A stretch of DNA of 64,000 bases from Eurosta solidaginis (Eukaryota > Arthropoda > Insecta > Diptera > Tephritidae): positions 282,941,693 through 283,005,692 of the forward strand of contig NC_090319.1 in assembly GCF_040869045.1 (NCBI RefSeq), given 5' to 3'. The notes under the pieces were generated by a model. That model saw only the letters and a list, made by a program, of their open reading frames with translations. It did not search any database and was not told the DNA's origin. Shown here piece after piece: positions 2,891 to 57,105 of this stretch (within the stretch, counting starts at the first letter, position 1; each line of letters begins with the position of its first letter). The position numbers were made by a program, and so were the translations under genes.

Positions 2891-3020
2891 ATGTTCTGGT
2901 CTCCGCGACGGCAACCCCCCGACGGGTTTCATCGCGCCATGTTGCCAGGCCGCAAACCCAAATCATCCGGGTACCCCAATGCTTGCCTAAGGACGCCCAG
3001 TCCAAGGGCCACAACAGCAA

Positions 3021-4559
3021 TTGCGTCCTAGCCTTCCCCTACCCAAGCGTAGTCGCCCGTCACTTACCCCCAGAGTGGCGACGTCTCCCCTCATGCACTT
3101 CAGAATTCTGCAGTTAAACTGTAATGGACTAACTGGGAAGATTACGGAGATAGTCGATTTCATGAAGCGGCACAACATCCGCATTGCTGCAATTCAAGAG
3201 ACTAAACTCACAGCAAGATCTGCATTGCAGACCTGCTCTGGGTATAACGTCCACAGGAAAGACCGCGAGAGCGGAAATGGAGGCGGTCTTGCGTTTATCA
3301 TACACCACTCTGTGCAATATTGTATATTTGATCCTGGCATCGACCGCAGGGACAATGTCTTAGAACGTCAAGGACTATCTGTCCGGTCAGGTGATGCAAA
3401 CCTAGAAATCATCAACATCTACATCCCTCCTGCCACCTGTTGCCCCAGAGAATACCGCCCTAATATCAGGGCCTTACTCACTGGCAACAATCGCATCATC
3501 TTAGGCGATTTCAATGCCCATCATGATCTATGGCATTCAAACTTGCGGGCGGACAGTAGGGGTGAGATGCTGGCGGATCAAATAGAAGAAACGACGTTCT
3601 GCACAATAAACGGAGACGCCCCCACACGTATGGTAGGAAGCTGTCACAGCTCGCCAGATATTTCAATCGTGAGTGCAGAACTCGTAAACTGCGTCAACTG
3701 GCAGCCGATGGTAACATTGGCATCCGACCACCTGCCCATACTTATTTCGCTTGAGCGTAACGCCGACTTCATCGTCACTGAAAAACGCACTTTCATAAAC
3801 TTCAAAAAAGGAAAGTGGGAAGAATACAAATCCTTTACAGACAGCCGCCTGGCTGCCCTCCCTAATCCGACTGATGCCCGCCAAGGGGAGCGTGCCTTCC
3901 GTAAGGTCATTAAATCCGCCTCGGCACATTTCATTCCCGCCGGGAGAATTCCCGAAATCCGGCCCCACTTCCCGGCGGAGGCCGCAAACTTAGCGAGAGA
4001 ACGTGACCTTATAAGACAGCTTGACCCAGGTGACCCCCAAATAAGGGATATAAACCAACGCATCAGATTGCTTGTAGATGAACACAAGCGGGCGAAATGG
4101 GAGGAGCACCTAAGAGGTTGTAACCTCTCTACCGGTGTGGGTAAACTTTGGTCCACCGTAAAGTCCCTATCGAATCCGACTAAGCACAATGACAAAGTTT
4201 CTATCGCCTTTGGCGACAAAGTGCCGTCGGACGCGAAAAAATGCGCGAGCGCTTTCTGCCGACAATATATAATGCATCCTACGGTCGACAAAGATAGACG
4301 GAGAGCCAATAGACGCGCACATAAATACAAATTCAGCGCGTCACCAATCACCATCACCGCTAAAGAGGTTGAGGACGCCATTGGTCGTGCTAAACCATCC
4401 AAAGCAGTGGGCCCAGACGGCATAGCCACTCCGATGCTTAAAAACCTAGGGAAAGAGGGGTTCAAATATTTAGCACATGTCTTCAATCTGTCTCCTTTCC
4501 TCCTTCCACCTTTGTCATACCTGAGAAATGGAAAATGGCCAAGGTGGTCCCGCTACTAA
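3021..4559 (+). pseudogene. LINE endonuclease and N-terminal RT region
   Basis: The frame is 512 codons. An apurinic/apyrimidinic-type endonuclease fills roughly residues 25-230, with LQLNCNGLTGK, the catalytic Glu in QETKLT, NGGGLAFIIHHSV, the metal site GDFNAHHDLWHS and the terminal SDHLPIL. A linker follows, then the start of the RT (KPSKAVGPDGIATPML, a typical lead-in). It ends in a shifted frame after 'HVFNLS', and the true continuation is the frame starting at 4535. In-frame sequence continues upstream of 3021 as far as a TAA at 2988-2990, which is CAA in copy 2, so the frame originally extended further 5'. Confidence 0.85.
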
Positions 4560-6166
4560 AGCCTGGGAAACCAGCTAACATAGGTGAGTCGTATCGTCCG
4601 ATATCTCTCCTATCGCCAGTGGCAAAGACGCTTGAAGCCATTCTGCTCCCTTATTTCCAAGCAAATTTGCAGCTAGCCCCTCATCAGCATGGCTTCAGAA
4701 AACTCCATAGCACTACCACCGCGCTGAATGCCATTAGCACCCAGATAAATTGCGGTTTAAATCAATACCCCCACCATAGAACAGTACTCGTAGCGCTAGA
4801 CCTATCAAAAGCTTTTGATACGGTCAACCATGGCTCGTTACTGCAGGACCTGGAAGGGTCTACCCTTCCCCCATGTCTTAAAAGGTGGACCGCAAATTAT
4901 CTGGGTGGTCGGCAGGCATCGGTGCAATTTAGAAACGAAACATCAAAACCAAGGAGAATTGAACAGGGGGTGCCACAGGGTGGTGTCCTATCCCCACTTT
5001 TGTTTAATTTCTACATATCTAAGCTACCTTCACCACCGGAAGGAGTCACAATCGTTTCCCACGCCGATGACTGCACAATAATGGCCACAGGCCCAGGCCC
5101 AAAGATCGATTCGCTATGCAATAAAATAAACGGCTACCTCCCTGATCTCTCCAGTTTTTTCGCCTCGCGAAACCTGGAATTATCACCGACTAAATCTTCC
5201 GCGATCTTATTCACAACATGGACGCCCCAAATGTTGACCATTTTGAACATCCACGTCGATGGCACTACGCTACCGACTGTCCGACACCCCAAAATCTTGG
5301 GTGTGACGTTTGATCAGGATCTACATTTTGGTGAGCACGCAGCCGCAATTGTTCCGAGAATTCAGAGCCGTAATAAAATCCTCAAATCGCTAGCTGGCAG
5401 TACTTGGGGAAAAGATAAAGAAACGCTCATGACTACATACAAAGCAATTAACCAGCCGATTACGTGCTACGCGTCACCCATATGGTCGCCAAGCCTAAAA
5501 ACCACCCACTGGAAGAAACTAAAGGCCTGCCAAAATACTGCTCTCAGAATTGCCACGGGCTGTCTTCTTATGTCCCCAGAACACCATCTGCACAATGAGG
5601 CGAGAATACTCCCCATCAGGGAGAGAAATGAGATGCTGACTAAACAGTTCCTGTTGAATACCCAGAAACCTGGGCATCCCAACAGACATCTGATTGATGA
5701 ACCAGCACCGCCTAGGGGCTTAAGAAGTCATCTCCGTAAGCATTTTGAGGAAATACGGCACCTGAGAACCCAGCCGTATGAAGTGAAAAAACACAAGCAG
5801 GTCCTTGGTGAACTCCATAAACAGGCGTCGGACCTCTATGCCGGGAATTGCCCGGTGAATCCAGTACTGAACGAAAATTATCCAAAAATTGCGGAGGAGG
5901 AACGCATACTCCCCAGGGAAACGCGTGTCACTCTTGCTCAACTTCGTTCTGGATACTGTAACAGGTTAAACTCTTACCTATCCAGAATCAACCCCGACAT
6001 ACAAAATGTATGCCCCGCTTGCAATGTGTCCCCACATGACACCAACCATCTCTTCAATTGTAATGTGGAACCAACGCCTCTAACACCCCTTTCCTTATGG
6101 TCCACCCCTGTTGAAACGGCAAGTTTCCTTGGACTCCCGTTAGAGGATATTGATGACAATTTGTGA
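4535..6166 (+). CDS. LINE reverse transcriptase and C-terminal domain
   Basis: The open frame is 543 codons and overlaps the previous one by 25 bp in another phase, because of an indel near 4490-4510. RT landmarks are YRPISLLSP, HGFRKLHSTTTAL, motif A (ALDLSKAFDTVNH), motif B (GVPQGGVLSPLLF) and the catalytic box as HADD rather than the usual YADD. The thumb and a C-terminal region follow, ending in a C-x2-C-x7-H-x4-C zinc knuckle. The length and motifs suit a working polymerase segment, but the protein as a whole is cut by the upstream frame lesion. Confidence 0.88.
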   Translation: MAKVVPLLKPGKPANIGESYRPISLLSPVAKTLEAILLPYFQANLQLAPHQHGFRKLHSTTTALNAISTQINCGLNQYPHHRTVLVALDLSKAFDTVNHGSLLQDLEGSTLPPCLKRWTANYLGGRQASVQFRNETSKPRRIEQGVPQGGVLSPLLFNFYISKLPSPPEGVTIVSHADDCTIMATGPGPKIDSLCNKINGYLPDLSSFFASRNLELSPTKSSAILFTTWTPQMLTILNIHVDGTTLPTVRHPKILGVTFDQDLHFGEHAAAIVPRIQSRNKILKSLAGSTWGKDKETLMTTYKAINQPITCYASPIWSPSLKTTHWKKLKACQNTALRIATGCLLMSPEHHLHNEARILPIRERNEMLTKQFLLNTQKPGHPNRHLIDEPAPPRGLRSHLRKHFEEIRHLRTQPYEVKKHKQVLGELHKQASDLYAGNCPVNPVLNENYPKIAEEERILPRETRVTLAQLRSGYCNRLNSYLSRINPDIQNVCPACNVSPHDTNHLFNCNVEPTPLTPLSLWSTPVETASFLGLPLEDIDDNL

Positions 6167-13692: not shown

Positions 13693-14149
13693 TTTTGCGA
13701 ATTATGTTTTCCGAAGATGTGTTAAACAAAAAAATTTACATTTATAAACAAAAATGACAATCAAACGTTCGAGCAGGGTTGCATTGCTAACTTTGCCAAA
13801 GAAATGATATGGTATTGGAACATAGCCTGGCCGTGTGTAATCCTTGATAAAAAAGTAAACAATTTATCTAAAAAATCGTAAAAGTCAATTTATTTTAGAT
13901 CACAGCTAAATCTTTCCTAAAAATAAAAGGAGAGGTTCCAAATAACAGATTTTTTACCGTAGTACTGTGAGTCCGAAAACGGAAACTAAAGTTTTATTTC
14001 TTTCGAGAGATATATATTTGCAAAAGAGTTTGAAATTTTGGTAGAGCTTTTTGCAGAAGGTATTTTGCGCCGATATAATTTTGACCTCTAAACCGATGTT
14101 TCACTTAATCAAGGTGGATTTATAAAAGGCTATCAATGCAAAAATAAAA
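13693..14149. other. CDC40 upstream region
   Basis: This is the putative promoter side of CDC40 (minus strand). It is AT-rich and no clear core promoter element or divergent gene was recognised. Confidence 0.4.
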
Positions 14150-14451
14150 TAAAATAAATACATGCAAGGCGCGATAACCTCCGAAGAGATCTAAGGCCGA
14201 GCTTCTCTTCCAATTTGGCCGGAGAGGACCTACATGTTTTATGCCGGCTCCGAAAGGCATCTGCAAGGCAGATGAGTTTTCACTGAGAGCTTTTCATGGC
14301 AGAAATACACCCGGAGCACTTGCCAAACACTGCCGAGTGGCGACCCTGCTTAGAAAAGTTTTATTCTAATTGAAAAACCGTATTTCTAAAATTTTGATGT
14401 TGCTTTGCCCGGGTACGAACCCAGGGCATGCGGTGTGGTAGGCGGAGCACG
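14150..14451 (-). mobile_element. tRNA-derived SINE, 5'-truncated copy
   Basis: On the minus strand it contains the B-box-like part of the tRNA head, the body, and the tail ending '...gcgccttgcatg' plus T/A-rich tail. It is close to the full copy at 51263-51624 but stops inside the tRNA head near 14451 and has a short deletion in the body ('aatttggccgg'). Confidence 0.85.
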
Positions 14452-17777: not shown

Positions 17778-20700
17778 ACAAACTTCCAACACAGTAAACT
17801 GGCGTCGAGCGAACTCCTCCTAACCCTTGAGGAGGGTTCGTTTGGCGTGGCGCTGATCCAGGAGCCGTGGCTCTCATCGGGAGGAAAGGTTTCTGGACTT
17901 AGCGTGCGCGGATTTGGCGTTTACTATGCGCAAACGGAAGGACGGGTGCGAGCTGTAGTAATGGTAAGGAAACAGCTGCATTCATATATGCTGCCTAATT
18001 ACATTACTGAGGACCTCGTAGTGGTGGCCGTTGATCAAAGGAATAAGCAGGCACTTATCCTGGCATCCTGCTACATAGCCTATGCTGCGGAGGTTCCACC
18101 GATGGAGTGTAAGAGGCTAGTACAGGACGAAAGGCGCAAAGGGCGGTTGGTCATAGGCGCGGATGCAAATGCGCGCCACAATGCGTGGGGAGGAGCAGAT
18201 ACGAACGAGAGAGGCGAATCTCTATTTTGTTACATCCTGCACACCAATTTGTAGATAGCCAACAGGGGAAATGTCCCTACATACATTGGTCCAACCTCCA
18301 GCAATGTTTTGGATATTACACTGAGTTCCGAACGTGATATATCAAGGTATGATTGGATGTTTCTTGAGAGACCATCCTTCTCCCACCATGCGTATATCAG
18401 CTTTGGAATCCCCCTAAAGAGGGTAGAGAAGGGAGGAACCTTTAGAAACCCTAAAACAACAAACTGGACTAAATTGCAGAAAAAGGTAGAAAGGAAACTC
18501 GGACAACCCAAAGAGGTTGCCAATGTGGAAGAACTGGAGGAGTCTAATGAATTCCTAACAAGGACGCTTATGACTGCGTATAACAAAGCTTGCCCTCTAA
18601 GAAGATTCAGAGGAAAAGCAAAGCCGCCATGGTGGAGCAATGAGCTGAGTCTTCTAAGAAGACAGGTAAAAGAAATGTTTAAGCTAGCAAAGACCGCGGA
18701 AAGCGAAGCGTGTCGGGACGAGTACAGGGATCTACTGAGGACCTACAAGCGTGAAATAGCAAGGGGAAATATAGTCGAGGGACTAATAAAGAAAGAGAAC
18801 GGGAATGGTCCCGTAATAGTGAGGAATCCCTTGAGGTGTTTCTCGATACACATTTCCCATCGGGAGATGGTTTAGAAGAGCCAGCAGACATCACTCACAC
18901 TTCGATAACGGAGCTCGTAGTGCCGGACTTGGTGACCGATACTAAGATCGAGTGGGCAGTGAAGACGTTTTCTAAGTTTAAATCGCTGGGCCTAGATGGC
19001 ATATTCCCGGCCATGCTACAAGTTCCAAGTAGGGCGGTCGTGGAATGGCTTAAAATAATATTCGATGGGTGCATAAGACTGAATCATGTACCGCACTCTT
19101 GGAGAACTGCTCGTGTAGCTTTCCTACCAAAGGCGGGGAAGATTGGTCACGTGTATCCCAAAGATTATAGACCCATTAGCTTAACATCATTTCTGCTCAA
19201 AACCTTTGAGATGCTGATAGATGTGTACATAAAGTCCAACGTGGATGAAAAGCTGCTCTCCACAACACAACATGCGTACACCAAAGGCAAGTCGGTAATA
19301 TAAGAAATATGGAATATAAGAAATATGCTCTAGGAGTCTTCTTAGACATTGCCGGGGCTTTCAATAATGTTTCTAAATGGGCGATTATGGATGGTCTTAA
19401 TTACATTAAAGTACATCCAGCCTTAACGAAATGGATCGGCTGCATGTTAAATTGCAGGAAGATTACATCACAATGGGGATTGTACGAGGTCACGAAATCA
19501 GTGGACAGGGGAACGCCGCAGGGAGGGGTGCTTTCACCTCTGCTGTGGATGCTGGTCATCAACCAACTGCTCAGGCGATTTGACGAGGGACCAGTAAAAC
19601 TTACGGCTTATGCGGATGACGTTGCAATTGTCATAAGTGGAAGATGCTTTCCAACGATTAGCTCTTTGATGGACCGGGATATTCATACCTGGGCATCAAA
19701 TGTCGGGTTGAAAGTCAACGCGGATAAGACGGATATGGTCTTGTTTACAAAGAGGTACAAGGTCCCAAATTTGATCAGGCCTAAGTTGGGAGGGGTGACC
19801 CTACATGAAAAACCTTGCACAAAGTATCTAAGAATCATCCTAGACAGTAAGCTATCATGGAAGCTCAACGTGAAGGAGAGGGTGAAGAAGGCTTCAACGG
19901 CACTTTATGCATGTAAAAGAATGCTGGGGTGTACGTGGGGCTTATCGCGCAGCTTAAGCGCCGACCATACGGCCATAGTAGTATGGCGTCATAAATCACA
20001 AGATGAACAGACTACCTAATTCCCTATCTGCGCTTCGAGGGCGATCTTAAGGCCACAATAGAGGTGGACGGCTGGCGCAAGGGTGTTCAAATGGCGGACG
20101 AGGCCATACATGTGTACACAGATGGTTCCAAAGTAGTGGAAGGAGTAGGGTCTGCGGTATACAAATACAAATACAGGCTGCCGGATTACTGTAGCGTTTT
20201 CGAAGCGGAAATAGTAGCCGTAACCAAAGCAGTAGAAACCCTGGAAGAAAATAGCCCAAGCTGCAATCGTGTTCACTTTTATATTGACAGTCAAGCAGCA
20301 ATTAAGGCAATAATCTCTCATACCACAGCATCTAAAAGTGTATTATTGTGTAAGCAGTCCCTGGAGAGAATCGGGACAGGGAGAAGCATACATCTATATT
20401 GGGTCCCAGGGCATATGGGAATAGATAGCAATGAAAAAGCGGATGAACTAGCTAAAAAGGGCGCATCCCTTGAAGCTTGCTCCGTAGACGTCCCAATTAG
20501 ACTGGGCGAAATTAAGCGAAGGCGAGAGGTGCACATGATCGACCAAGCAGGAAAGGCGTGGGTTCAAGCGCGGGGCTGTAAAGTGTCAAATATTATGTGC
20601 AGGTCTTACAAACTTAGACTATCAAAGTTGCTTCTATCATTAAAAAGAGAGGACTGTAGACTCAAGACGGGTATTCTGACTGGACACTGTCTTCCGGCGT

Positions 20701-20804
20701 CACATGCCAAATTAGGCTTGGTCTGCACTTGCCAGGTTAAGACTCTAGCTATTAGGAGTGATACAGCTGACAGATCTAGAAGCAGCAAGTGGCTTAAATC
20801 CTAG
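17778..20804 (+). pseudogene. LOA-type LINE ORF2 (EN, RT, RNase H), broken
   Basis: The endonuclease starts near 'QHSKLASSELLLTLEE' and has LIQEPW and GADANARHNAWGG; a TAG at 18252-18254 interrupts it. The frame shifts near 18830. RT blocks follow: DYRPISLTSFLLKT, then after a small deletion near 19290 motif A (FLDIAGAFNNV), motif B (RGTPQGGVLSPLLW) and motif C (YADD). Sequence is missing around 19960-20050. RNase H is well preserved, with its four acidic residues in TDGSK, EAEIVA, DSQAAI and NEKADELAKKGA. A further deletion near 20730 removes the C-terminal zinc knuckle that is intact in the copy at 44714. Confidence 0.88.
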
Positions 20805-23745: not shown

Positions 23746-24009
23746 TAAAAAAATAAAAATAAATGTAAGGCGCGATAACCTCCGAAGAGATCTAAGGCCG
23801 AGCCTCTCTTCCAATTTGCGCCGTGCTCCTCTTGATGCAAGGCAGATGAGTTTTCACTGAGAGCTTTTCATGCCGAGGGGGGCGACCCCGCTTAGAAAAA
23901 GTTTCTTCTAATTGAAAAACCTTATTTCTAAAATTTTGATGTTGCTTTGCTCGGGGTGTGAATCCAGGGTATGCGGTGTAGTAGGCGGAGCACGCTAACG
24001 GTGGCCGCC
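23746..24009 (-). mobile_element. tRNA-derived SINE, full ends, internal deletions
   Basis: The tRNA head (24009 leftward) and the tail are both present, and it is flanked by a 12-bp target duplication aaatattaaata at 23734-23745 and 24010-24021. About 100 bp of the body is missing relative to 51263-51624. Confidence 0.9.
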
Positions 24010-24021
24010 AAATATTAAATA

Positions 24022-28624: not shown

Positions 28625-31600
28625 CTATTCCCTGTAGGGTTTGCAATACGAATAACGGTGATTCATGTGCTGACTATAAGAACCAGAGTGTGAGAAACGC
28701 TTTAGGCATTTGGTGCATTGGAATGGCTTTTCGCCAGTATGCAATCGCTTATGTTCGGTCAAATGATGTTTGTGCTTGAAAGCCCTCGGACATTCCATAC
28801 ATTGGTAGGGGCGTTGACCTGTAAAAAGAGATATGAGAACAAAAAGTTCGAGGTTAATACATGTGCTACAGATGCATTGCAAGGCTAAAACTCTACAACA
28901 GTAGTCAAATTTACTAACTTTGAACATACGAGATTTGTTGAAATATTAACTAACGATTTTTCGCTTGCTATACCGATTGTGTTATTCAAAGCTATAGTTT
29001 TAACATCGCTGGAGGAAAAGTGGTTAAAAAAGTGCCAAGTAACAGAATTTAAATATTCTACTACTATTTAATGATCATAGGTTAACGTATATAGATAAAA
29101 AAATAGTCACTTAATAACGAAATCGTTTTAGCTATCGATAACCTAATTTAGCGAGGTTGAATATCGGAAAAAAAGTTAATGAATTGCACTGCAGAAGTCT
29201 TCATTATTCAGCACTATTGCGACCTTTACGATTTAAATTTTCCTAAAAGCTCGATAAGCCTCAAAGGTATGCTGTGGAGCTCCAACCTAACGGTATATAA
29301 AATTTGAGCATGCGCTATGCAAGGTTTATGCTCACCAGAATGCTCGTACTTGTGTCTCGCCAACGAACTTTGCTTCGCAAACGCCTTATCGCATTGATCA
29401 CAAATAAAAGGCAAATCCGGATCACCAGCATGTCCATGCGTCTCTGCTTTGTGACGTTTGGGTTTCGGTAATAATCCATTGGAAATGTAGTCATCCTCGT
29501 GAGAGATGCGAGACTCATCGTCGCGCCAAGAACGTTTTTCCGAGCCGCCGGGACTAAGACTCGTTCCACGGTAATCAGGAAATTTAATACTGTTGATGAG
29601 TGGATTGCACGCATATTCACCCGGTGTCATACGGAACATAGCCTCCATGGGCATTAGGCTACGCTGTGCGCCATTGGGTAGCATATATGGTGGTAGATGA
29701 CCAGTCAACGAAGCAGAGAAACCGTTATTACTATGATTATTTACATTACGTGGTGTAAGCGGTTGTGGTTGTTGCTGTTGCTGCTGTGTTATTAGTGGCG
29801 CTTCACTAGGTGATGGTGTTCTATGTTGGAAATGTTGATTTGTGTGTGGAGCACTGAAATAGAATGCACCATGCGGTTTGAGTGTCTGAGGCACAGATGC
29901 GGCGGATGAAGGTGAGGGCGATGAGGGTGGTGACATTGAAGCGGACATTTTGCGGCTCAAATTAATTGCCTCATTCAAATCACCAACGTTCACATTCTGC
30001 ATGGGCGCTATGCCATAGAGAGGTGAATGTTGTTGTACACCGTTGCGCATAGACGACAACAACCAATCACGTTTCAATGACAAATCCAACGGTTGCTCTT
30101 CACCTGGACGCCTGCCATTCGATGTTGCTGCTGTATGCTCCACCCCAGTAACTGCAGCGTCAGCTCCCTCCTTTGTTGTGGGCGCCAGTGGAAATGGCAA
30201 TTTACCATTTGCTTGCATAAAACTTTGTAATTTACGTTCACGTGAACGATTATTTTGAAACCAAACTTGTACGACGCGTGCATCGAGTTGTAGTCGTGTT
30301 GCCATCATACGAAATTCTTCGCGACTTGGACGCGCATTAATGGCGTAGTGTTGCTTTAGTTGTGTTTGTTGCTCTTCAGTGATGGCAGTACGTACACGCA
30401 CTTTACGTTCGCTGCCCTCGCTATTGCAGTCATTGCGTGAGCAAGAATCACGTTCGTCTTGATAGTCTTCCAAATCACTTGAATGCTGTAGAGAGGGTAA
30501 TGAGGTTGTGGACAATTCGGCGATGGACTCATTCAAACTGTGTGTTAAATTTGACTGCTGTTCATTATCTACACGTTGACACGGTTCTTCTTCTTCTTCT
30601 TGTTGCTGTTGCTTCTCTTCAAGCTTCTGCGTATGTTCGTAGTGTTGTTGTAACTCTTGTTTTATATAACCGCATAGCACCTTTTCGTGTTGTACGAGTT
30701 CAGTTTGATGATTGAATTGTTTGTTACAGCGACTACAACGTAGCTCAAGCGCGTTAGATATGTTCAAGTTGGAGTTGTATGCTTCTACTACTTCTGTGTG
30801 GTGATTGTGCGTAGATGCTTCTTCGTCCTCTGGGTGAATTTCCTCGTTTTGGACGTTATTTTCCATCTCCTGCTTCATTGTTGTTGGTATCACTGCCTCT
30901 GGTTGTGGCACGTTCGCCAATGGTTGTGATTCTGCTTCTGCGCTTGCTGGTGTTGTGGGACGGCTTAGTTCTAGTTTGATGTTTGGCATTGTTTCTTTTT
31001 CTACGCTGGTTTCAATTGCATCACTGTGCTCAATTGGTGTGCTTGTTGCACGCTTTGTTGCTTCAACATTCAAACTTTCACGCGCTTCTGCTCCAATTGC
31101 TGCTTCTACCTTCGCATCTTCTTCGCAAAGCTTTTCCTCAAAACCTTTGGAATGTTCTGCGGTTATAGATTGGTGACGCTCTGGTGCCGTATTTCTCTCC
31201 TCATCTTCCTCCTTAGCATCAACTTCATCTATATCCATTACCAATTTTGGCTCATCTGGCGTTTCTTCTTCGTTCACCTCATCAATGGAGTCTTCAAAAT
31301 GCGTGCTATGTTCCTGCCCCTCCACTTGTAATTGCTGCTTCTCCCCTTTCGCTTGTTCCTCTTCTTCGCGCAGTTGTTCCTCTGCTCGTTGCTGTTCTTT
31401 TTCTCGTTGCTGCTCCTCCAAATGATGTTCCTGCCTTTGCTGCTGCTGCTGCTGTCCAACTGCTGTCAGTTCCAGCAATCGTTGTATATTATACGAAGGC
31501 AAGCGAGGATCCAACGCCAAGCTATAGAAGGGATTTGGGAACGTGGCCAATAGAGCTGCATTCATAGCATAATCATCATATTTAGGCAATAAATGCTGAT

Positions 31601-32081
31601 AGAATGGTGGAGTGCTGCCATTTGTCCCCGCATCACCAGCATAATAATTCATGTGCTGAGAGAGCCCAGGCGGTAGCGGTACATTGGCATGGAGAGCGGC
31701 TTCGGTGAGACCATTCGTTTTTAAAATACCGCCGTTACTGCGCTTAGCACCGACTACACCCTGGCTGGCGGCATTCTTATCCAACGCTTTGAACATAGCG
31801 CGATTTGGATGCAATTTCATACCCATACTAATACATTTCTTTGACGTCATATGCGATGAGTATGAGCCGGAATGTGAGAATCTTTTACCGCAATTATCAC
31901 AACCGAACGGTTTCTCGCCGGAATGAATGCGTACATGCTCTTTGAGATGATGTTTAAATTTGAAAGCCTTATCGCATTGATTGCATTTGAATTTGCGCAG
32001 AAGAGCGGATTCATCGTGACTGATCATGTGACGTTGCAAGCGGTAAACATTGGCGAAGGCTTTGTTGCATATTTTGCAGCT
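28625..32081 (-). CDS. zfh1: Zinc finger homeodomain protein 1 (3' exons)
   Basis: Two exons are present, 32081-29336 and 28818-28625 (stop UAG), with a 517-bp GT-AG intron. The large exon begins inside the N-terminal finger cluster: [33 protein letters not shown], then a C2HC finger [15 protein letters not shown]. Next come Glu/Gln-rich linkers, a lone finger ([10 protein letters not shown]), the homeodomain at about 30408-30225 ([12 protein letters not shown] in helix 3), a CtBP-binding PLDLS (30093-30079) and the C-terminal fingers, completed in the last exon ([18 protein letters not shown]..., [22 protein letters not shown]). This is the ZFH1/ZEB architecture; in Drosophila the protein is a nuclear transcriptional repressor in mesoderm and other tissues. 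The 5' exons are not in the window. Confidence 0.96.
28819..29335 (-). other. zfh1 last intron
   Basis: The donor is GTGAGC from 29335 and the acceptor TTTTTACAG ends at 28819. It splits a glycine codon in the linker between two C-terminal fingers. Confidence 0.9.
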
Positions 32082-35000
32082 CTGAAAAGATAAGAAAAAA
32101 TAAAAGGACAATTAAAATAGGTAAAAGTGTGACTTGGGCGTGATATGTTTTGAGGGTTTGAAAGGTGAAGAACGGAATGGATATATTCTAAGTACAAAGT
32201 TTAAGTAATTTAAACCTGCAAGTTATTGGAGATCTCTGAAAGAAGACTGTTACGAATAACTATCTAGTTTTCAACGGAGAAATCAATCTTTTTAACAAGT
32301 GCAAAGTAGGACAATACTGAGAAGGCAATTTAAATGTATTCCCAGGATATACATAAAAAGTTTCTCATCGTTAATTATGATTTCAAACTTTTATTAAACA
32401 ATTTATTTAAGGCCAAGTACTTGAAACTTACAAAAAAAATATATATATTCCACATTTCAATAAAATTTAACAACAACAATAATAAATAATAATTTCTGTT
32501 TAAATCTCTAAAGTAATATCCTACAAGTTTAAATTTTAAGACTTTTGTTAATTCAAAAAAAAAAAAAAAAAAATACATTTGAAATACTTTGAAATAAAAA
32601 AAGAATTTAGTTCTAAAGCAAATTGTAAGCTATCATATATTATATCAGATATTTTTCTACAAATTTTTATTTCCGCCGTTCAATGGTGCAAGTTTGTATA
32701 TTGTTTTTTTTTTTTTTTTCAATTTTAATTACATTTGAATAATTTGTTTCTTATTTATAAGAACTTGAAAATAATAAACAAATCAAAAACTAAAAAAATT
32801 GAATTTTTTAAACAAAATATTCCCTTTTATATATTTTTTTAATGTGAAAAGTAAAATAACAAAAAAAATTGTTTAACTCAGTTTAAAAAAAAACTGTAGA
32901 AGATATTTCAATTAAAAAAAATTATTGAAAATTTTTAAAAACTTGAACATAATAAATTTTGTTGAATTAAAAACAGAACAAAAATACAGTCACTTTATCT
33001 GGAAATTTTTTTAAGTTTCTGAATTTTTTTATTACTATTTTTTATTTAAAACACAAAAGAAGCTAAAATTTAATACAATTTAAATATGTTTTTCTTTTGT
33101 TGGACAAAATATTTTCTCTTTTTTTATTTAATAATTTGGGAAAAATTTAAACAACGTGTCATCAGCACGGACAAGGCGACAGCTGTTTCGATATTTTCTC
33201 GTAGACTTTTTTTTGATTTAAAAAAGATAAATTCCACAAAAAGTTGTTTTTTAACCTTAATTGACAACTAATTTTAGAAAAAAATATTATTTCAGAAATT
33301 AAAAATATGTTATTAAATAAAAACTTGAAAATAAAATAACTTGGCTTTTTTTTTTTATTATGAAATTCTAAATTTTTTGAAATACAATGTGTTTTAATTT
33401 AAACTTATTTTATAGCGGTTAGAAAATAAGAAACTTTGTGAAATTAAAAACTGGAGAAAAATTTAAAATAAATATTATCGAAAAGTTGTTTTTGAAAATA
33501 AAATGTTATAAAACAATTGAAAAAGCCGCAATAAAGTGTAAAAACCTCACACAAACAATGAAAAAAAAGCAAAGCGTCAAAGATGTCACTTACGGAAGCA
33601 GTTTTTTTCCATCAGTTTTAAGTTTTGATTTATGACAAACTGATAAAGCGATAACATGACAGACAGGCGAAAAGGTCTTCATATACTTGTTTGAGGAAAG
33701 AACAGTTTTAGGTGGAGTAAACAATTTCTTATTTGTACCAAATAAACGGCACGTGTAGTCTATTTTTTGCTACTTTTTAGAAAAAAGCGTAGACATAGCC
33801 TATAAGTAGAATATTTTGATGACGTTTATCTTTTAATAGCAATAAAACTATTTGTGATTTGAAAATATCAATTTACTGATAAGCACCTTCCCATGCCAAT
33901 TTTAGTTGTTAAGGTTTGCCTATTTGAAATTAAATTGTTTGGATTTAATCAATTGACGATTGTTTTGTTGAGCCAGCATTTAGAATTAACTATTGCTTTT
34001 GGAGCATTTCCGTTGAAACTATTAAATATTGTAAGTAAATTTAAGTTTTTCATGTTAGTTATTTAAGTTTTTCCTCCAAGCCAATTTAAGCTTAGTTATT
34101 GAACCATGAGGCTTGGTGAGGATTATATTTCAGCTATTTTCTAGAGCACTCAACCCTTTTCAAAAATATATCAAACGATTTACTCATATTATCTTGTTAA
34201 ATAGTTAAACGATTCAGAAGATTCGAAATCGAAGTTTCCCATATAATTTAAATGAGAACTAGAAAAGTCTGATGCGGTCAATATAAGTTCGAGGGGCTTA
34301 ACTATTTAGAGGCCTCTTTTTCTACAGAGGCAAAACAACGGCTTTACTATATTTACGTTCTATTACATCACACCAGCCATGCCTTCTTAAATTGACTATG
34401 GAACCATAATATCTAACAAAACGCTCATTTAACCTTGTAATATGATATTCAAAATAACTTATGACAAAATACACAACTTAAAATCTTGCAGTAAAAAGAT
34501 CGATCGGCATTAAAAATGCACCACACATCCGTCGAAACACCACACAACGCACAAGAATATTTTTTTAAATCGAAATAAACTTTATACGTATGTATATTTA
34601 CTCTTTCAAAGATAAAGGTGTTATTTTGCAAAACCAAAATTCCCATTTCTTAACACTCTTGTGCTTAACCATTAACTTTTTAAATTATTCTTAAAAACTG
34701 GTTCTTGTTTTTCTTGTTCTTTTGACAAAAGCAGGTAGATAAGCATACTATGTTAAACAATAACAATTAATTAAACACTTGGGAAAAATTAACCAATGTA
34801 AAAACAGACGAAGAGAGAAAAATAGATGGAAAGTAGAGAGTGAAAATTCAATGAAATTATTTAAAAATGCGCAGCGTTGCAAATTTGATTATCATATTAA
34901 CAATTTTCGCATCGAAGAATAGTGTTTCTATAATTTTATAGTTATTGGGATTTTTTAAGGTTTCAGATCTTTTACATAAATTTTAAATTCTAATTTCCGA

Positions 35001-43936: not shown

Positions 43937-44075
43937 AACTATTGAATTAAAATAAAATAAAACTAAATAAAACAAACTAGAAATAAACAAAATAAAATAA
44001 TTTAAAATTTAATAAAATAAATAAAGGTACACCACAATAAAAACAGTATAATAATAAATATAAAAGTATATCAGC

Positions 44076-44344
44076 AACATCAAAATTTTAGAAACAAATT
44101 TTTTCAATTAGAAGAAAATTTTTCTAAAAGGGGGTCGCCCTCGGCACACTCCGAGTGTATTTCTGCCATGAAAAGCTCTCAGTGAAAACTCATCTGTTTT
44201 GCAGATGCCGTTCGGAGTCGGCATAAAACAAGTACGTCCCGTCCGGCCAATTTGTAGGAAAAAATTAAAAAAGGAGCACGACGCAAATTGGAAGAGAAGC
44301 TCGGCTTAAAATCTCTGCGGAGGTTATCGCGCCTTACATTTATT
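44076..44344 (+). mobile_element. tRNA-derived SINE, 5'-truncated at the tRNA boundary
   Basis: The sense copy of the SINE body ends '...gcgccttacattta'. A 9-bp duplication, tatatcagc, flanks it (44067-44075 and 44345-44353). It starts just after the tRNA-like head, so the head was lost during insertion. Confidence 0.85.
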
Positions 44345-44713
44345 TATATCAGCTTTACTGCATCAAGCCAATGAAACGAAATAAAAATAACAACAGCAAC
44401 AATAAAAAACAGAAAAACTTTATTAGGCAGCATATATAAAATGATAGTCATAGCCTAAGACCACGTTTACACCTGCACTAATCTACAATAAACCCGCAAT
44501 AGATAATCTACGCGTTTGTATACAAATATCCCATCCCTAGGAATTAGATTATTAGCTGTCAAATTTTCACGGTTCTATTTTATTTCGTGCTTCCATTTAG
44601 AGATTACACCTTAGAGATGGTACTTTGTCTATGGAAAATACTAATTATAGGAGGGAAAAATTTATATTGTAAATCTAGTCATTTAACTAACGATTAGGAG
44701 TTAAGTACGAAAA

Positions 44714-47658: not shown

Positions 47659-49873
47659 CTATATTAGTAAGGATCAAGAAATAAAAATAAAATTTTATGA
47701 GACCCTCGGGGACTAACTCAGTTTAATATTCAAACAGATTTTTTTCGGCGCCAGACCGGTTTTTTGATAGGTTGAGCCATAAGCAAAAGAAAAGAATTAC
47801 TAAATTTTTCTAAGTTAACTTCCAGAACATAGTTATGGGATTCAAAATTAAACTTTTCTATATTACATATTTTGGTTCTGAAAAACGCTATACTGCTTTT
47901 TAATGTTCTTGTGACCTGTGTTACCATTTTCACATAGCCGTTTGCGCATTGTTTGCTGAAACAAGAAGCATGCTTGGAGCTACAGCGCGTTAAGAAACCA
48001 AAAGTAGGTATATGAAAAGGACATCAGAAATAAATTTACACGCTATTAAGACTATAATATTGACATATTAATTTTACAATAAAAAAAAAATGATGAACGT
48101 GGACACTTTAGAAAAAGTATATTTTTTCGGCCCAGTCTAATATCTACCATTGTCCTTACACGGGCCTAATATACCTTTATTTACTGCCATAAACACCGCT
48201 ACAATTAAAACAACTATGACTGTTGATCTATCTCTTTTTCTTACATAGGCTTGAGTTATCTTACTGCACACATCACCTGTTCGTTTCTAACAAATACAAC
48301 GCTTTGGCACCTACAAGTGTATCTATTTACATATATATATATATTCAACCTGTTTGTTCTTCAAGAACTCACTCGCTACCTGCCTGCCTTTTCTTAACGC
48401 ACATGCAAAGAGCAGCTCCAAAGTTAAAAAATGTATATGCATATGTATGTAATATGGATGCACAAACAAGCAAATATGAATGCTCTCCGATAAGAAATGT
48501 GCACTTGTTTTACCTGTGTCTCTACCTGTTTACTCTTACGCCAATAGTTAGTGTAAGGTGAGTTCATTCTCGGTATAAACATACAAAGCTAGACTTCATT
48601 GGTCAATTGCCTGCTGAGATATGTATGTAAGTATGTATAAATTACGCCTATTATTTCTTCGCCATTTTTAAGCAACAAAACAGGGCAGTGTCGAATCAAA
48701 ATTTAGTAACAATGGTTCCACTGCTGCTATGTAATTATAAATGTACAGTTAAGCGTAATTTAAAAAAATGTATTAAATTAACTCTTATTGTTAACAAAAA
48801 TGTACGTTCGTATGTATAATTAAATATTTATTATTAAAAAAATGATTGCTGGTACATGTGTGTGTGTATATAGTCACATAGTAAATATGCACTTAGTTGA
48901 GTGGGGAGTAGGTAGTTGAATTTATTTTTAACTTAAAAAATAAATTCCAGTATTCATAATCGTAATCATAAAGGTATGTGCATGAGTCAAGCGCAGCTAA
49001 TGCGACGCATGAACGCTTACAGTGAGTCCAGCACCACTACATACAAGAGCGCGCAGTCAACGACCGGATGTACTCAATTGTGTGAAAGCACCTTGATGAG
49101 CGGCTTAGCGAGTATGAATATACAATGTATATATGTATTTACAAGAACTTTGTATTAAAGCTATAAAGTTGAGTAATCAGAAAGAAATGCAGAAAAAATG
49201 TAACAAGTGGAAATTTCGATAGGTAGACAACAACTGCATACTTACATATGTAGGTGTACGTAGGGTAACATTTTACGTATCTTCGCTTAGAGTGCGTATT
49301 AAACATTTGTAATACCAAGTAAATGCAGTTGTGATGAACTTATACGGTTTATTTTAACGAGATAATTTATTTTGTCACAGAGTTTACCATCAAGATTCTA
49401 AGAATTGCGTAAGTACAAATGCCAGCTTTGTATAGCAGAAGCATGAAAAATATTTATGATGGGAATTTTAGTTGCGCAGTTTGCAAACGTACACAAAACA
49501 GTTTACCAGAAGTGAGTGTTCTTAAAAAAAAGGTGCACATTTCAACAAGCGTCGGGCCTAAGCATCGAAAAACCACGATTTATATGCACCTAAAGAGTGT
49601 TAAAAAGGTTTGATTAGGTTGAACGGCAGCTGGCATTGCATAGGCTAAGCACACTTGTACAGAACTTAGACCAGTTGTAATACTACATAAAAATAACTTT
49701 GAATAAGTCCTACGGAGATCCGAATAAAAAGGGACTGAGTAATTTGTGCCTTGCCTTGGCAAAAGTTGGGATGAAGCATAAAGTGTTTGGATGAGTCCAA
49801 TTCGTCATCTTCCATGAAGCTTGCTACAGCAAAATGGATACATTAGTACGTTAATGATAATACCTGGCAAACT
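47659..49873. other. AT-rich DNA left of the viral insertion
   Basis: No gene is recognised; the open frames here are short and featureless. Confidence 0.4.
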
Positions 49874-49921
49874 CGTAATCGAAAAACAATTTATTTTTAT
49901 CCTTCTATAAACAGTCGAAAC
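49874..49921. repeat. 48-bp direct repeat, left of viral insertion
   Basis: It is identical to 52730-52777 except for one base and starts cgtaatcgaaaaac. Together the two copies bracket the 2.8-kb virus-like block, like an unusually long target duplication. Confidence 0.85.
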
Positions 49922-49922
49922 A

Positions 49923-50013
49923 GCCATTGACAATGGCTTAAACATGGGCGAAGCCCGTTAGCCTGTTGGGCCTGCGTTTTGTCACTTGCCCACAACCACT
50001 TGAGTGGTCGTGG
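49923..50013. other. Hairpin cluster, candidate remnant of a viral terminal repeat
   Basis: Three short palindromes lie within 91 bp: gccattgacaatggc (49923-49937), gggcgaagccc (49946-49956) and 11-bp arms at 49990-50000 and 50003-50013 with one mismatch. The stretch is GC-richer than its surroundings and begins exactly where the left 48-bp repeat ends, which fits a parvoviral terminal hairpin. No matching structure is seen at the right end. Confidence 0.5.
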
Positions 50014-50108
50014 AGGTTGTTGTGTTATAGTGAATTCTTTACCATACGATATTTGAAATATGATCATATCAAGTTTAGGGCGTAGTCAATAATATAAACA
50101 TCAAAAAC

Positions 50109-50116
50109 GTATATAA
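50109..50116 (+). promoter_or_regulatory. TATA box of the NS-type promoter
   Basis: The 'gtatataaaggg' element lies about 35 bp before the first ATG at 50146. The short leader is as expected for densovirus NS promoters. Whether it still works is unknown. Confidence 0.55.
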
Positions 50117-50145
50117 AGGGAAGAATTCATAAATTGTAAAATTAA

Positions 50146-51207
50146 ATGTCAGTCAATATTCAAAGCGAATCGACGTGTGACTATACTGAATATCAATATT
50201 CTAGCTATACTAATTCATATAATTATTCAAACAGTTTGGAAAATGGTACGAACTATCAAATCAGTGAAAATGCAGAAAACAGAAAAAATGAATCAATTAA
50301 TACCAGTGAAAAGATTTCAATAAGAGGAAAAAGCAGTGAGAGACGATCCATTAGCCAGCAGTTCAGAAAGCGACGACGAAAAAGTTCAGGAAATTCCGAT
50401 GGCGCAGGAACTTATGCAACCTGTAGTAGTAACGGAAGCGGAACAACTAGAAATGAATCCATTAGAAAGTTCGGACGAGGAGGAAATGAACAAGAATTGT
50501 CAACCGTTGGATCTAAATCCAAGTACGTTCAAAGCTGGCCTGAGGACAATGCTTCTAATCGATCTTCTGCACTTATTATGGGATCCAGTAATTTTAACCA
50601 AAATAAGTATAGTGTTAAAAAAAGTGGAGAGATATTTTGTAAAGCAAAAGAATTTAGAGATAAAGAGATTAGTAATTCAGATTCACAATTTAATAGCATG
50701 TACAGTGAAAACAATGGAAAAGAGTTCAATAATGTTAAGGAGGTGTTCGTTCAATCTTTTCGAGAATTACCTCCAAAAAGAAGAATTGTACATGACATTT
50801 ACGAAAAGAGAAATTCCCCAAATTTTAATAGATGTGATTATTCAAACCTACGAGAAAAGCAGCGAGGATCAGTCTTCATTGTGTGCAGTCATGGAGAACA
50901 CTTCCATGTTATCCACGATTACACCTACCACAACTATTCTTGCAGATGTTCAACCATTGAACGATTCAAATGCAACGAAGAAGTTGGAAGACGATTTTCT
51001 CGACGAACTGTTGCCAGTGTCGAGTACTCTATCGAACACTGGGTCGAGTTCTCCGTTAGATGCCAATTACATAGCAATTCAAAAGATATTGAAGAATGTA
51101 GCATCAAACATAACAAAAATAGAGGGAACAAAGAAGATGGAAAGGTCGAAAAATTGCTGGTTTGGCTAAAAAAAATACCCAGTAACGCCCATTTCTCAGA
51201 TATTTAG
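50146..51207 (+). pseudogene. NS1-like N-terminal part with HUH motif
   Basis: The open frame is 353 codons. Residues ~245-260 contain a His-hydrophobic-His motif (GEHFHVIHD) followed by YSCRC, matching the endonuclease (replication-initiator) domain of parvovirus NS1. The N-terminal half is low-complexity Ser/Asn/Glu-rich. A stop at 51205-51207 ends the frame, while the expected helicase domain follows only after a SINE and in other phases, so the gene is broken. It overlaps the frame at 50336-51169 in another phase, as NS1 and NS2 do in densoviruses. It should be inactive for viral replication as it stands. Confidence 0.75.
50336..51169 (+). pseudogene. NS2-like overlapping frame
   Basis: The frame is 277 codons long and uncut, lying inside the NS1-like frame in another phase. 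It opens with an acidic stretch (ASSSESDDEKVQ, LESSDEEEMNK). Position, size and acidity fit densovirus NS2, whose role is poorly defined. That both overlapping frames remain open is unusual for an old insertion. There is no direct motif proof, and the frame could survive partly by chance because of the codon constraint of the other. Confidence 0.55.
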
Positions 51208-51249
51208 TACTTCTTTATGGTTGAATTCGCAATGGAAATTTTTTAGCAG

Positions 51250-51262
51250 AATGAGCCCTTTA
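51250..51262. repeat. Target duplication, left, of SINE in the viral relic
   Basis: The 13-mer aatgagcccttta is repeated exactly at 51625-51637. Confidence 0.95.
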
Positions 51263-51624
51263 AAAAAAAAAATAAATGTAAGGCGCGATAACCTCCGAAG
51301 AGATCTAAGGCCGAGCTTCTCTTCCAATTTGCGTCGTGCTCCTCTTGATTTTCCCTACAAATTGGCCGGACGGGACCTACATGTTTTATGCCGACTCCGA
51401 ACGGCATCTGCAAAGCAGATGAGTTTTCACTGAGAGCTTTTCATGGCAGAAATACACCCGGAGTGCATGCCAAACACTGCCGAGGGGCGACCCCGCTTAG
51501 AAAAATTTTCTTCTAATTGAAAAATCTTATTTCTAAAATTTTGATGTTGCTCTGCCCGGGAGTTGAACCCAGGGCATACGGTGTGATAGGCGGAGCACGC
51601 TACCATCACACCACGGTGGCCGCC
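51263..51624 (-). mobile_element. tRNA-derived SINE, full-length reference copy
   Basis: On the minus strand it starts ggcggccaccgtgg. It has an A-box-like tggtgtgatggtagcg and a B box ggttcaactcc (the two internal Pol III promoter elements). A ~250-bp body follows, and it ends '...cgccttacatttattt' plus T-run. The 362-bp length and the perfect 13-bp duplications mark a full copy. The tRNA source is uncertain (Asp- or Gly-like loop). Relatives: 6657, 14150, 23746, 44076, 53165, 56860 and a scrap at 1786. Confidence 0.92.
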
Positions 51625-51637
51625 AATGAGCCCTTTA
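51625..51637. repeat. Target duplication, right, of SINE in the viral relic
   Basis: This is the exact second copy of aatgagcccttta; viral-type sequence resumes directly after it. Confidence 0.95.
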
Positions 51638-52340
51638 GTGTTAAATATAAAGAAAATTCATGGGGCATTCTATAATGATTTAAGCATAGAAGAGTTATAT
51701 ACTCATTTTACAAATGTAGATCCACAACACTTAATATTTAATACTCCACAATGTAATATTAAAGATTATTATTATAATTTAGATTATTCTTTTCATATTT
51801 AAAAAAAAATTTATTAAATATCAATTTAGTAATAATGAAGAAAAAATTCAATCGTTTTATACAAATTTATTTAATGTTCTTGATAATAAAATACCAAAAA
51901 AAAAACTGTGTATATATATTATCTCCTCCTAATTCAGGAAAAACCTTTTTTTTGATGCTGTTGTCCATTATTGTATAAATTATGGGCAAATGGGAAATTT
52001 TAACAGATATTGCACATTTCCATTAATGGAATGTGTTGATAAAAGAATTATATTCTGGAATGAACCAACAATGGAGCCTTCTGCTTCAGAAACATTAAAA
52101 TGTATACTAGGAGGAGATACTTGCAATGCAAAAATAAAATATCAAGGTGATGCTGTTGTAATGAGGACACCAGCAATTGTATTATCTAATAATGACATAT
52201 TTCCTAACAGTGAAGCATTTAGAAGTAGAATATTCCAATATAATTGGAGACCTGCACCTTATCAAAAAAATTATACAAATAAACCATATCCTTTAGCAAT
52301 ATATTTTTTATTTCAAGAATATATATTAAATAAAAAATAA
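51638..52340 (+). pseudogene. NS1-like C-terminal part: SF3 helicase remnant
   Basis: A Walker A-type P-loop, PPNSGKT, is encoded at 51925-51945. After a phase change near a T-run, the frame 51990-52340 holds the Walker B-like segment (DKRIIFWNEP) and the following sensor region (TPAIVLSNND), the conserved order of parvovirus NS1 superfamily 3 helicases. Earlier sequence (51638-51920) has stops in each candidate frame. AATAAA (52336-52341) overlaps the stop. The break by the SINE and at least one frameshift make the whole NS1 inoperative. Confidence 0.85.
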
Positions 52341-52348
52341 ATTATAAA

Positions 52349-52680
52349 TTATTTATTGTGTTTTCTTTTTGCAGAAATAATCTCATATTCATCTAATACA
52401 TCCGCCATTGAAGAAATATTTTCAGATGGATCAACAATTTGTCCAAATAGTGTTTCACCCGTAGTATAACTGTAGGAATGATTTGGTTTAAAGGTGACTT
52501 CTTGAGGCCAAGATATTAATTTTCCTGGTGTAAATGCTGAATGATAATTTTGCTTTATAGTAATTCCGCATTATACTCTCCAATAACAAGACGAATTAAG
52601 GAAATTAGTATCATTATTTGTCGGATTTAGTTGAGGAGTTGCAAATAATCCAACATGAACTTGAGGTTGTGTTGTTTAAA
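52349..52680 (-). pseudogene. Densovirus-type capsid (VP) C-terminal remnant
   Basis: Minus-strand translation gives a capsid-like C-terminus in two phases: an upstream piece with VGLFATPQLNP and, after a stop or frameshift near 52570, a piece with SAFTPGKLISWPQEV that ends at the TAA at 52351-52349. AATAAA on the minus strand (52357-52352) sits just before that stop. Convergent orientation with NS1 is the ambisense plan of ambidensovirus-like genomes. The rest of the capsid gene, including the N-terminal region, is absent. Confidence 0.7.
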
Positions 52681-52729
52681 TATTAGACTGGGTCAGTTTC
52701 CGTAAGAAATAAGAATAATGCAACAAAAC

Positions 52730-52777
52730 CGTAATCGAAAAACAATTTATTTTTATCCTTCTAAAAACAGTCGAAAC
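52730..52777. repeat. 48-bp direct repeat, right of viral insertion
   Basis: Differs at a single base from 49874-49921. Host-like sequence continues after it. Confidence 0.85.
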
Positions 52778-52779
52778 TG

Positions 52780-53060
52780 TTTTTTACTGTGATTTGATTA
52801 CTTCGCATCTGATTTTTGAAACTGATATGCCAAAGTTTTGATCTATACTTCCTTGTCTGAGCTATGCAGTCGTTTTCGAAGTTTTGTAAAGCTTAAAGCA
52901 TATTTTTAGGCGCTACAACTAGGCTGGCTAACAAAACTATACGAAAACGTGCTTCAGTGCTCAAAAGGACACTAGAATAAGGTATATGTAAAGCTTTTTA
53001 AGACCACAAAAATATTTGCAACATTAAAAATCGGATCACAAATAACCAACAGCGGCAAAC
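52780..53060. repeat. Possible decayed relative of the 47385 MITE
   Basis: The left end shares 'catctgatttttg' with 47419-47431, and the right end carries an inverted version ('aaaaatcggatcac'). The similarity is weak and no full TIRs can be traced. Confidence 0.3.
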
Positions 53061-56627: not shown

Positions 56628-56859
56628 TATTAGAGTTCAGCTAGGCCTACAATTGAAACCTAAACCGGAACTCCATTTAAACCTAGAACAGAACCCGTAA
56701 GTGGCACTAAAACTGTAACTTAAACTGAAACCGAAATTTAACTCGGAATTTGGACGATAAATTGAAGTTCTCGCCAAAATAGAAACCAGCACTGAATTCG
56801 AGACCGAAACCAAACGAGAAACAGGAGCGAAAATGAGAAATGGTAAAAAAAATACATGA

Positions 56860-57105
56860 CACGACTGACATCTGAGGAGATTTGGGCCAAGCATCTTTTC
56901 CAACTTGCGTCGTGATCCTTTTTAATTTTTCCTAAAATTGGCGGGAAGGCCTCTTACATATTTTATGCCGATTCCGAACGGCAGCTTTTCATCGTAGAAA
57001 TACGTTCGAAGTGTTTGTCAAATCGCCGCCGATGTGCGACTGCAATTAGAAAAGCTTTTTTTTATAATAGAAAAAACTTATTTCCAAATTTTTGATGGCA
57101 CCAAA
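56860..57105 (-). repeat. Old SINE body fragment (minus strand)
   Basis: It matches the SINE body at 51290-51545 with heavy divergence: 'gaggagatttgggccaagc', 'tgcgtcgtgatcc', 'ttttatgccgattccgaacgg', 'cagcttttcatcgtagaaata'. The tRNA head is missing. Confidence 0.7.

Follow-up and report, generated by a model that had tools for sequence, protein, structure and literature searches.

How did a fragment of densovirus in a fly chromosome come to lie beside two nearly identical 48-bp direct repeats? The question is raised by a stretch of 64,000 nucleotides from the tephritid Eurosta solidaginis (contig C1, NC_090319.1, positions 282,941,693–283,005,692; hereafter the window), which belongs to a chromosome-scale contig in an assembly of 1.908 Gb and 569 contigs, the one assembly used throughout. 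An earlier description of the window, the sequence-only reading, had placed an ambisense densovirus relic at 49874–52777, bracketed by the two repeats, and had suggested that the repeats could come either from repair of a widely staggered break during viral integration or from recombination between pre-existing repeats. Judged by its sequence, the relic is a real and dead endogenous ambisense densovirus fragment. For its junctions, we favor, with a probability of about 0.58, a model in which viral DNA was captured through end joining at the edge of a transposon-like repeat and the left junction received a templated copy.

The viral identification was upheld by profile matches on both strands and by related (kin) copies elsewhere in the assembly with the same convergent layout. 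On the plus strand, the helicase frame (51933–52337) matched Parvo_NS1 in the proposed profile search for parvovirus similarity (3.3e-10, 39.8 bits versus a Pfam cut-off of 20) and the adeno-associated virus (AAV) Rep40 chains in the PDB (E 6e-9), as befits a parvovirus-type NS1 SF3 helicase. It further showed 54–77% identity to nine database proteins, with 14 candidates found. As this last search admits solely proteins of 0.55–1.75 times the query length (~74–236 amino acids, aa), we dropped the idea, drawn from matches to proteins of 92–230 aa, that a break in the NS frame is common to the relatives. The motifs listed by the sequence-only reading are all in place: the Walker B motif WNEP (52056–52067), the sensor motif VLSNND (52179–52196), the H-F-H of a putative HUH motif (50899–50907), and the P-loop, the frame of which differs from that of the rest of the helicase and matches PPV_E1_C at 7.4e-4, below the cut-off.

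The H-F-H lies in a 353-aa open frame corresponding to the N-terminal half of NS1, and its position is H-hydrophobic-H in seven of eight aligned pieces. By tblastn this frame recovers kin copies with E-values down to 3e-110, and the copies of a second lineage (lineage B, below) as well as loci L019 and L031 at 29–38% identity. It found nothing significant in Pfam, the PDB or two protein-database searches, and an AlphaFold model from the eight aligned N-terminal pieces was useless (pLDDT 36). The frame is therefore a candidate HUH nuclease, by motif and conservation rather than by profile or fold. A 281-aa frame in an NS2-like position is conserved in kin copies (E down to 1e-104) and in lineage B copies (1e-10 to 4e-4), and the two frames are both open across ~850 bp. 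Overlapping NS1 and NS2 frames are a feature of densoviruses, and the relic displays the overlap expected of an endogenous element from the Densovirinae.

On the minus strand, the 34-aa capsid piece (52574–52675) matches the end of Denso_VP4 (4.8e-5, 23.3 bits, below the Pfam cut-off of 27), while the 73-aa piece (52352–52570) matched no Pfam family. Taken together, they are 79% identical to the ends of two kin frames across 105 residues, and these kin frames themselves score 2.2e-32 and 4.6e-30 against Denso_VP4. It is via the 34-aa piece and these kin frames that the capsid is recognized as being of the densovirus type. The pieces match residues 387–491 of a kin frame of 492 aa that is truncated where its locus ends; residues 1–386 of that frame have no match elsewhere in the window. 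The stop codons of NS and VP, one on each strand, are 8 bp apart, and the frames also converge in kin copies, giving the ambisense layout. Thus, the convergent capsid-like C-terminus proposed for the minus strand is present. The poly-A signals proposed to overlap at this junction do not: the AATAAA motifs nearest the stops (52336–52341 on the plus and 52352–52357 on the minus strand) lie 10 bp apart, and the AT-rich junction holds more of them (52278 and 52329, plus strand; 52307–52312, minus strand).

At the left end, positions 49932–50057 are 83% identical to the left end of kin copy L024, and 49983–50051 are 86% identical to that of L026. Two parts of this region recur in locus L035 in the opposite relative orientation, at the expected other end of the L005/L024 copy, a pattern resembling the flip and flop forms in which the terminal hairpins of parvoviruses exist. 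Since the left region of the window copy has no inverted repeat of at least 14 bp, its terminal repeat was probably cut. Single-strand folding of the two ends of the relic is ordinary (z of −1.35 and −0.38).

The relic has decayed in several ways. Besides a deletion of ~170 bp, it carries an insert resembling a short interspersed element (SINE) at 51263–51624, which is absent from the same four kin copies that retain the deleted bases. This insert combines dispersed copies with a target duplication, as SINEs do, and a related copy in L022 is 96% identical. It has no Rfam match, and its orientation and tRNA origin are our assumption. At least four other copies or parts of this SINE-like family lie in the window (14148–14451, 23749–24011, 44073–44345 and 56845–57097). 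The helicase pieces shift frame several times between about 51165 and 51950, and the capsid end has stops at 52571–52573 and 52676–52678. The copy is therefore non-functional and no product is expected from it; a putative role as a source of PIWI-interacting RNAs (piRNAs) is possible. The sequence-only reading, right about the virus, was incomplete in lacking the SINE-like insert, the cut left terminal region, the ~170-bp deletion and the large family of kin copies.

Capsid homology stops at 52675–52680 (52675 by protein, about 52679 by DNA). With a 381-bp query starting at 52680, we obtained 42 matches (of 70 candidates, 40 were scored), namely the locus, the left repeat copy and 40 others matching within 52735–53049 at 69–80% identity. 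The right flank is therefore a dispersed repeat, which includes ~32–40 bases of the 48-mer. The interval that separates the capsid homology from the right 48-mer contains ATATTAGACTGGGTCA, a 16-mer that, when one of its bases is left free, is found at 39 genome sites, this one included, versus one for the reversed control. At the ten of the 38 other sites that were aligned, the sequence before the tip is dissimilar, and the sequence after it is common within groups. Two of them, L039 and L050, run collinearly by blastn into a body holding the right 48-mer, and none of 2000 shuffles reached the L039 tip match before that body; L052 resembles these two in the multiple alignment alone. We thus read 52684, 4–9 bp beyond the capsid homology, as the putative tip of a transposon-like repeat, so that the right 48-mer would be internal to it. 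The tip ATANTAGACTGGGTCA, with its 39 sites, is joined to at least two different bodies among the ten aligned, as if several interiors use one terminus. The repeat may be akin to Tc1/mariner-like miniature inverted-repeat transposable elements (MITEs), being dispersed, with a constant tip and varied flanks; it differs from them in that no opposite tip occurs in the window within one mismatch.

The direct repeat itself is as first described, with 47 of 48 bases identical between 49874–49921 and 52730–52777, and over a longer span of 54 bp the copies agree at 51 positions. In 40 Markov resamples of the 4.6-kb region, the longest run allowing a single mismatch at most measured 14–19 bp, versus the 48 bp observed. 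A 161-bp query (the left copy plus 88 bp of left flank) matched just these two places in the assembly; this query was too insensitive to reveal the diverged relatives of part of the 48-mer that the 381-bp query found. Indeed, bases 49882–49921 of the left copy match the dispersed family. Alignment of the 48-mer with eight family loci gave five above the score limit. The right copy agrees with them at 28/32 positions (L038), 28/34 (L039, L040 and L050), 33/40 (L040), and 26/31 and 29/35 (L043), and the left copy at 27/32 (L038), 32/40 (L040) and 28/35 (L043), as compared to 31/32 between the two local copies over the bases compared with L038. Thus, the local copies are 97–98% identical to each other and 80–88% identical to the aligned family copies. 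Wherever both could be compared with the family (three cases), the right copy has one agreement more than the left; at this one core difference the left base therefore looks derived. The duplication thus appears to be local and young relative to the dispersed family. The concern that the 48-mer might be a common dispersed repeat is borne out for its ~32–40 family bases, whereas, within the searches made, the close pair occurs at this locus alone. No paralogous empty site was found in the assembly searches, with neither flank matching any other locus compared.

Of the two repeats, only the left meets the virus, directly at its terminal sequence or no more than 10 bp away; the right copy is ~50 bp from the virus, with transposon-like sequence separating it from the capsid homology. 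We infer the following course of events. A molecule of viral DNA with one break in its left terminal region and another in the capsid gene would have been joined into a break in a germline chromosome at the edge of an older transposon-like repeat, with the tip of that element forming the right junction. At the left junction, repair synthesis would have copied ~48–54 bp from inside the element prior to ligation, yielding a direct repeat that mimics a very long target duplication. The ~170-bp loss, the SINE-like insert, the several frame changes and the stops would have been acquired at some time. In the accessible part of PMC2895639, templated insertions are common at Drosophila end-joining junctions and are often imperfect repeats of 5–8 nt; as at the relic, the inserts of alternative end joining are copied from flanking sequence, and one insert listed in a table is of 49 nt.

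Several observations weigh against this course of events. An insert of 48–54 bp is long versus the frequent 5–8 nt of the Drosophila junctions in that part of PMC2895639. By blastn, the tip runs collinearly into the right body in just two of ten tip copies, while six have another body and one neither; the distance from tip to body also varies, being 50 and 83 bp versus 60 here. The gap between tip and body (52700–52749) agrees poorly with eight family copies (21–55% per 10 bp), and the missing opposite tip counts here as well. Further, at the left junction, the first ten viral-side bases (49922–49931) are unassigned, not being shared with L024.

The leading competitor is a target duplication, whereby a widely staggered or resected break was copied over 48–54 bp on both sides and the extra bases on the right were borne by the virus or changed later. 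We regard this as unlikely. That just two close copies, 98% identical, were found in the genome and that the left one meets the viral end would suit it; nevertheless, it is weakened because the copies of a target duplication have to adjoin the inserted DNA at either end, and here the left copy alone does so. The bases that keep the right copy off the virus are the tip of the same dispersed repeat, with tip and then body in natural order in two other copies, and the sequence upstream of the left copy is unlike the interval that separates the right copy from the virus (491 of 500 shuffles reach its score). This dissimilarity also led us to reject a target duplication of 98 bp whose left part has decayed. 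In the accessible part of PMC2987831, target duplications are not apparent at insect RNA-virus elements. Among three other densovirus elements with both flanks, one (L029) has flanking direct repeats, lying inside a 152-bp tandem repeat, and two (L030 and L031) have none, their limits being approximate; we therefore rejected the idea that direct repeats generally mark such integrations.

That the host already had two pieces of the family here, with the virus landing between them or recombination shaping the locus, is quite unlikely. While part of the 48-mer does belong to a dispersed family, and a kin element does sit in a tandem repeat, the two local copies resemble each other more than they resemble the aligned family copies; any pre-existing pair would therefore itself be a young local duplication, which weakens the proposed recombination between old repeats. 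It is very unlikely that the transposon-like element instead jumped into an endogenous capsid gene after capture and that the rest of the capsid was later deleted: its tip does stand directly against capsid sequence, and its copies do follow varied flanks, yet 33 kin frames of at least 100 aa from five loci find no further capsid in the window, which extends 11 kb rightward, and the jump by itself leaves the left 48-mer unexplained. That the relic has been retained by the host as a working gene or antiviral locus is highly improbable. The joint openness of the two overlapping frames might hint at such a function; against it stand the SINE-like insert, the deletion, the frame changes and the capsid stops, and the low ratio of nonsynonymous to synonymous divergence (dN/dS) among copies of its own lineage (lineage A, below) accompanies dS near or above 0.8, as expected of divergence as viruses before capture. 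End joining with a templated copy thus remains our preferred account of the junctions.

Table 1. Features of the densovirus relic and its junctions (window positions).
Feature	Position	Strand	Basis or remark
Left repeat copy (48-bp core 49874–49921)	49868–49921	+	Stops where viral sequence begins
Cut viral terminal region	49922–50057	+	Likeness to kin ends L024 and L026
TATA-like sequence, putative function	50110–50119	+	By eye; 26 bp before first ATG of 353-aa frame
353-aa open frame, N-terminal half of NS1 with H-F-H motif	50146–51207	+	Conserved in kin copies
281-aa open frame, NS2-like position	50324–51169	+	Overlaps 353-aa frame; conserved in kin copies
Deletion point	51045		~168–172 bp present in four kin copies (L005–L008)
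SINE-like insertion	51263–51624	-	Identical 13-bp duplications at 51250–51262 and 51625–51637
NS1 helicase, upstream piece	51626–51796	+	79–88% aa identity to kin frames over 57 aa
P-loop of NS1 helicase	51922–51945	+	Frame 51778–51978; out of frame with next piece
NS1 SF3 helicase with Walker B and sensor motif, 135 aa	51933–52340	+	Parvo_NS1, database proteins, AAV Rep40
Convergent ends	52336–52357		NS stop 52338–52340 (+), VP stop 52349–52351 (-)
Capsid C-terminus, two pieces split by stop 52571–52573	52349–52675	-	Denso_VP4, kin frames
Dispersed transposon-like repeat	52684–53049	+	Tip TAGACTGGGTCA at 52684–52695; body matches within 52735–53049
Right repeat copy (core 52730–52777)	52724–52777	+	Inside transposon-like repeat, core ~46 bp from tip

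The helicase piece has 82 matches in the assembly (93 candidates scored), 51 of them without an internal stop by hand count; since some are pieces of one copy, the copies are fewer than 82. Among the 20 loci that the kin comparison returned out of these matches, two lineages stand out. Lineage A comprises the window copy, three copies at 277.78–277.85 Mb of contig C2 and one at 225.93 Mb of C2, with dN/dS of 0.04–0.13 and dS of 0.8–2 in nine of the ten pairs; in the remaining pair, dS is saturated. From these values, its copies appear to have diverged while still viruses, prior to capture. The 14 loci of lineage B have a pooled dS of 0.02 and dN/dS of 0.64 over 91 non-independent pairs, a pattern consistent with amplification following capture. 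A tree built from 11 of the 20 loci and seven of the nine database proteins supports lineage A at 96/95 and lineage B with L019 at 99/99, with three of 15 inner branches well supported. A cluster of differing lineage A copies and partial copies (L005, L007, L008, L024, L025, L027 and L035) occupies 277.76–277.85 Mb of C2.

Endogenous densovirus elements are known from insects, crustaceans and flatworms (accessible parts of PMC5013282 and PMC13055364) and there, as here, consist of chromosomal NS1 and VP fragments at several loci per genome. In contrast to the 1–17 integration sites per flatworm species given in the part of PMC13055364 available to us, one assembly here has 82 helicase matches, a pair of lineages and, in one of these, head-to-tail units. 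The relic can be likened to the ambisense densoviruses, which have genes in both orientations, inverted terminal repeats and a length of about 5 kb, as described in the accessible part of PMC8363768, where the Drosophila Viltain densovirus is ambisense and near Culex pipiens ambidensovirus. This likeness to named densoviruses is by description; the closest sequences found are unnamed database proteins, 72–77% identical over the helicase. Phage records contain no match to the relic, and viral_contigs scans for relatives gave a single 22-residue match (L001). The literature accessible to us, in part as excerpts, yielded no report of such elements or of tandem densovirus arrays in flies, and the accessible text of PMC10689555, on non-retroviral elements in ten tephritids, contains neither "parvo" nor "DNA virus".

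At 186.92–186.97 Mb of contig C6, lineage B forms head-to-tail units of 4421–4453 bp, as assembled, with a palindrome of ~220–240 bp at each of the three unit junctions seen (L028, L032 and L033). As to hairpin terminal repeats, lineage B thus has junction palindromes of ~230 bp, and the window copy just the shared terminal region. The array edge at L032 adjoins a satellite-like array of 20/41-bp repeats. Tentatively, at somewhat less than even odds, one lineage of densovirus would have turned into tandemly repeated chromosomal DNA in this host: units of ~4.42 kb, roughly the length of the virus, stand head to tail with a terminal palindrome at the junctions seen, and have been amplified into numerous near-identical stretches, of which 14 were compared and some lie within or next to satellite-like arrays. 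The head-to-tail units may instead be an assembly error. The wider cluster at 186.7–187.1 Mb of C6 (L009–L013, L015, L018, L020, L021, L023, L032 and L033) is near-identical and lies beside satellite-like DNA, and several of its NS frames stay open.

Elsewhere in the window, a 961-aa frame on the minus strand (29229–32111) with C2H2 zinc fingers and a homeodomain represents a host gene of the zinc-finger homeodomain type, which we take to be zfh. Two retrotransposon frames lie on the plus strand, one with endonuclease and reverse transcriptase (2991–6163) and one with reverse transcriptase and RNase H (19249–20801).

The relic itself is an ordinary viral fossil. Its interest is as a case of a long flanking repeat that is easily mistaken for a target duplication and better explained by repair copying from a neighboring mobile element. 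The genome-wide densovirus expansion is the better and more interesting lead, one genome holding endogenous densovirus stretches of two histories, one diverged as viruses before capture and the other multiplied inside chromosomes. If the tandem arrangement is true, its unit structure would record the integration of a head-to-tail concatemer or satellite-like amplification of an integrated virus. Thus, repeated capture, joining by terminal repeats and satellite-like growth of viral DNA may be testable in one assembly.

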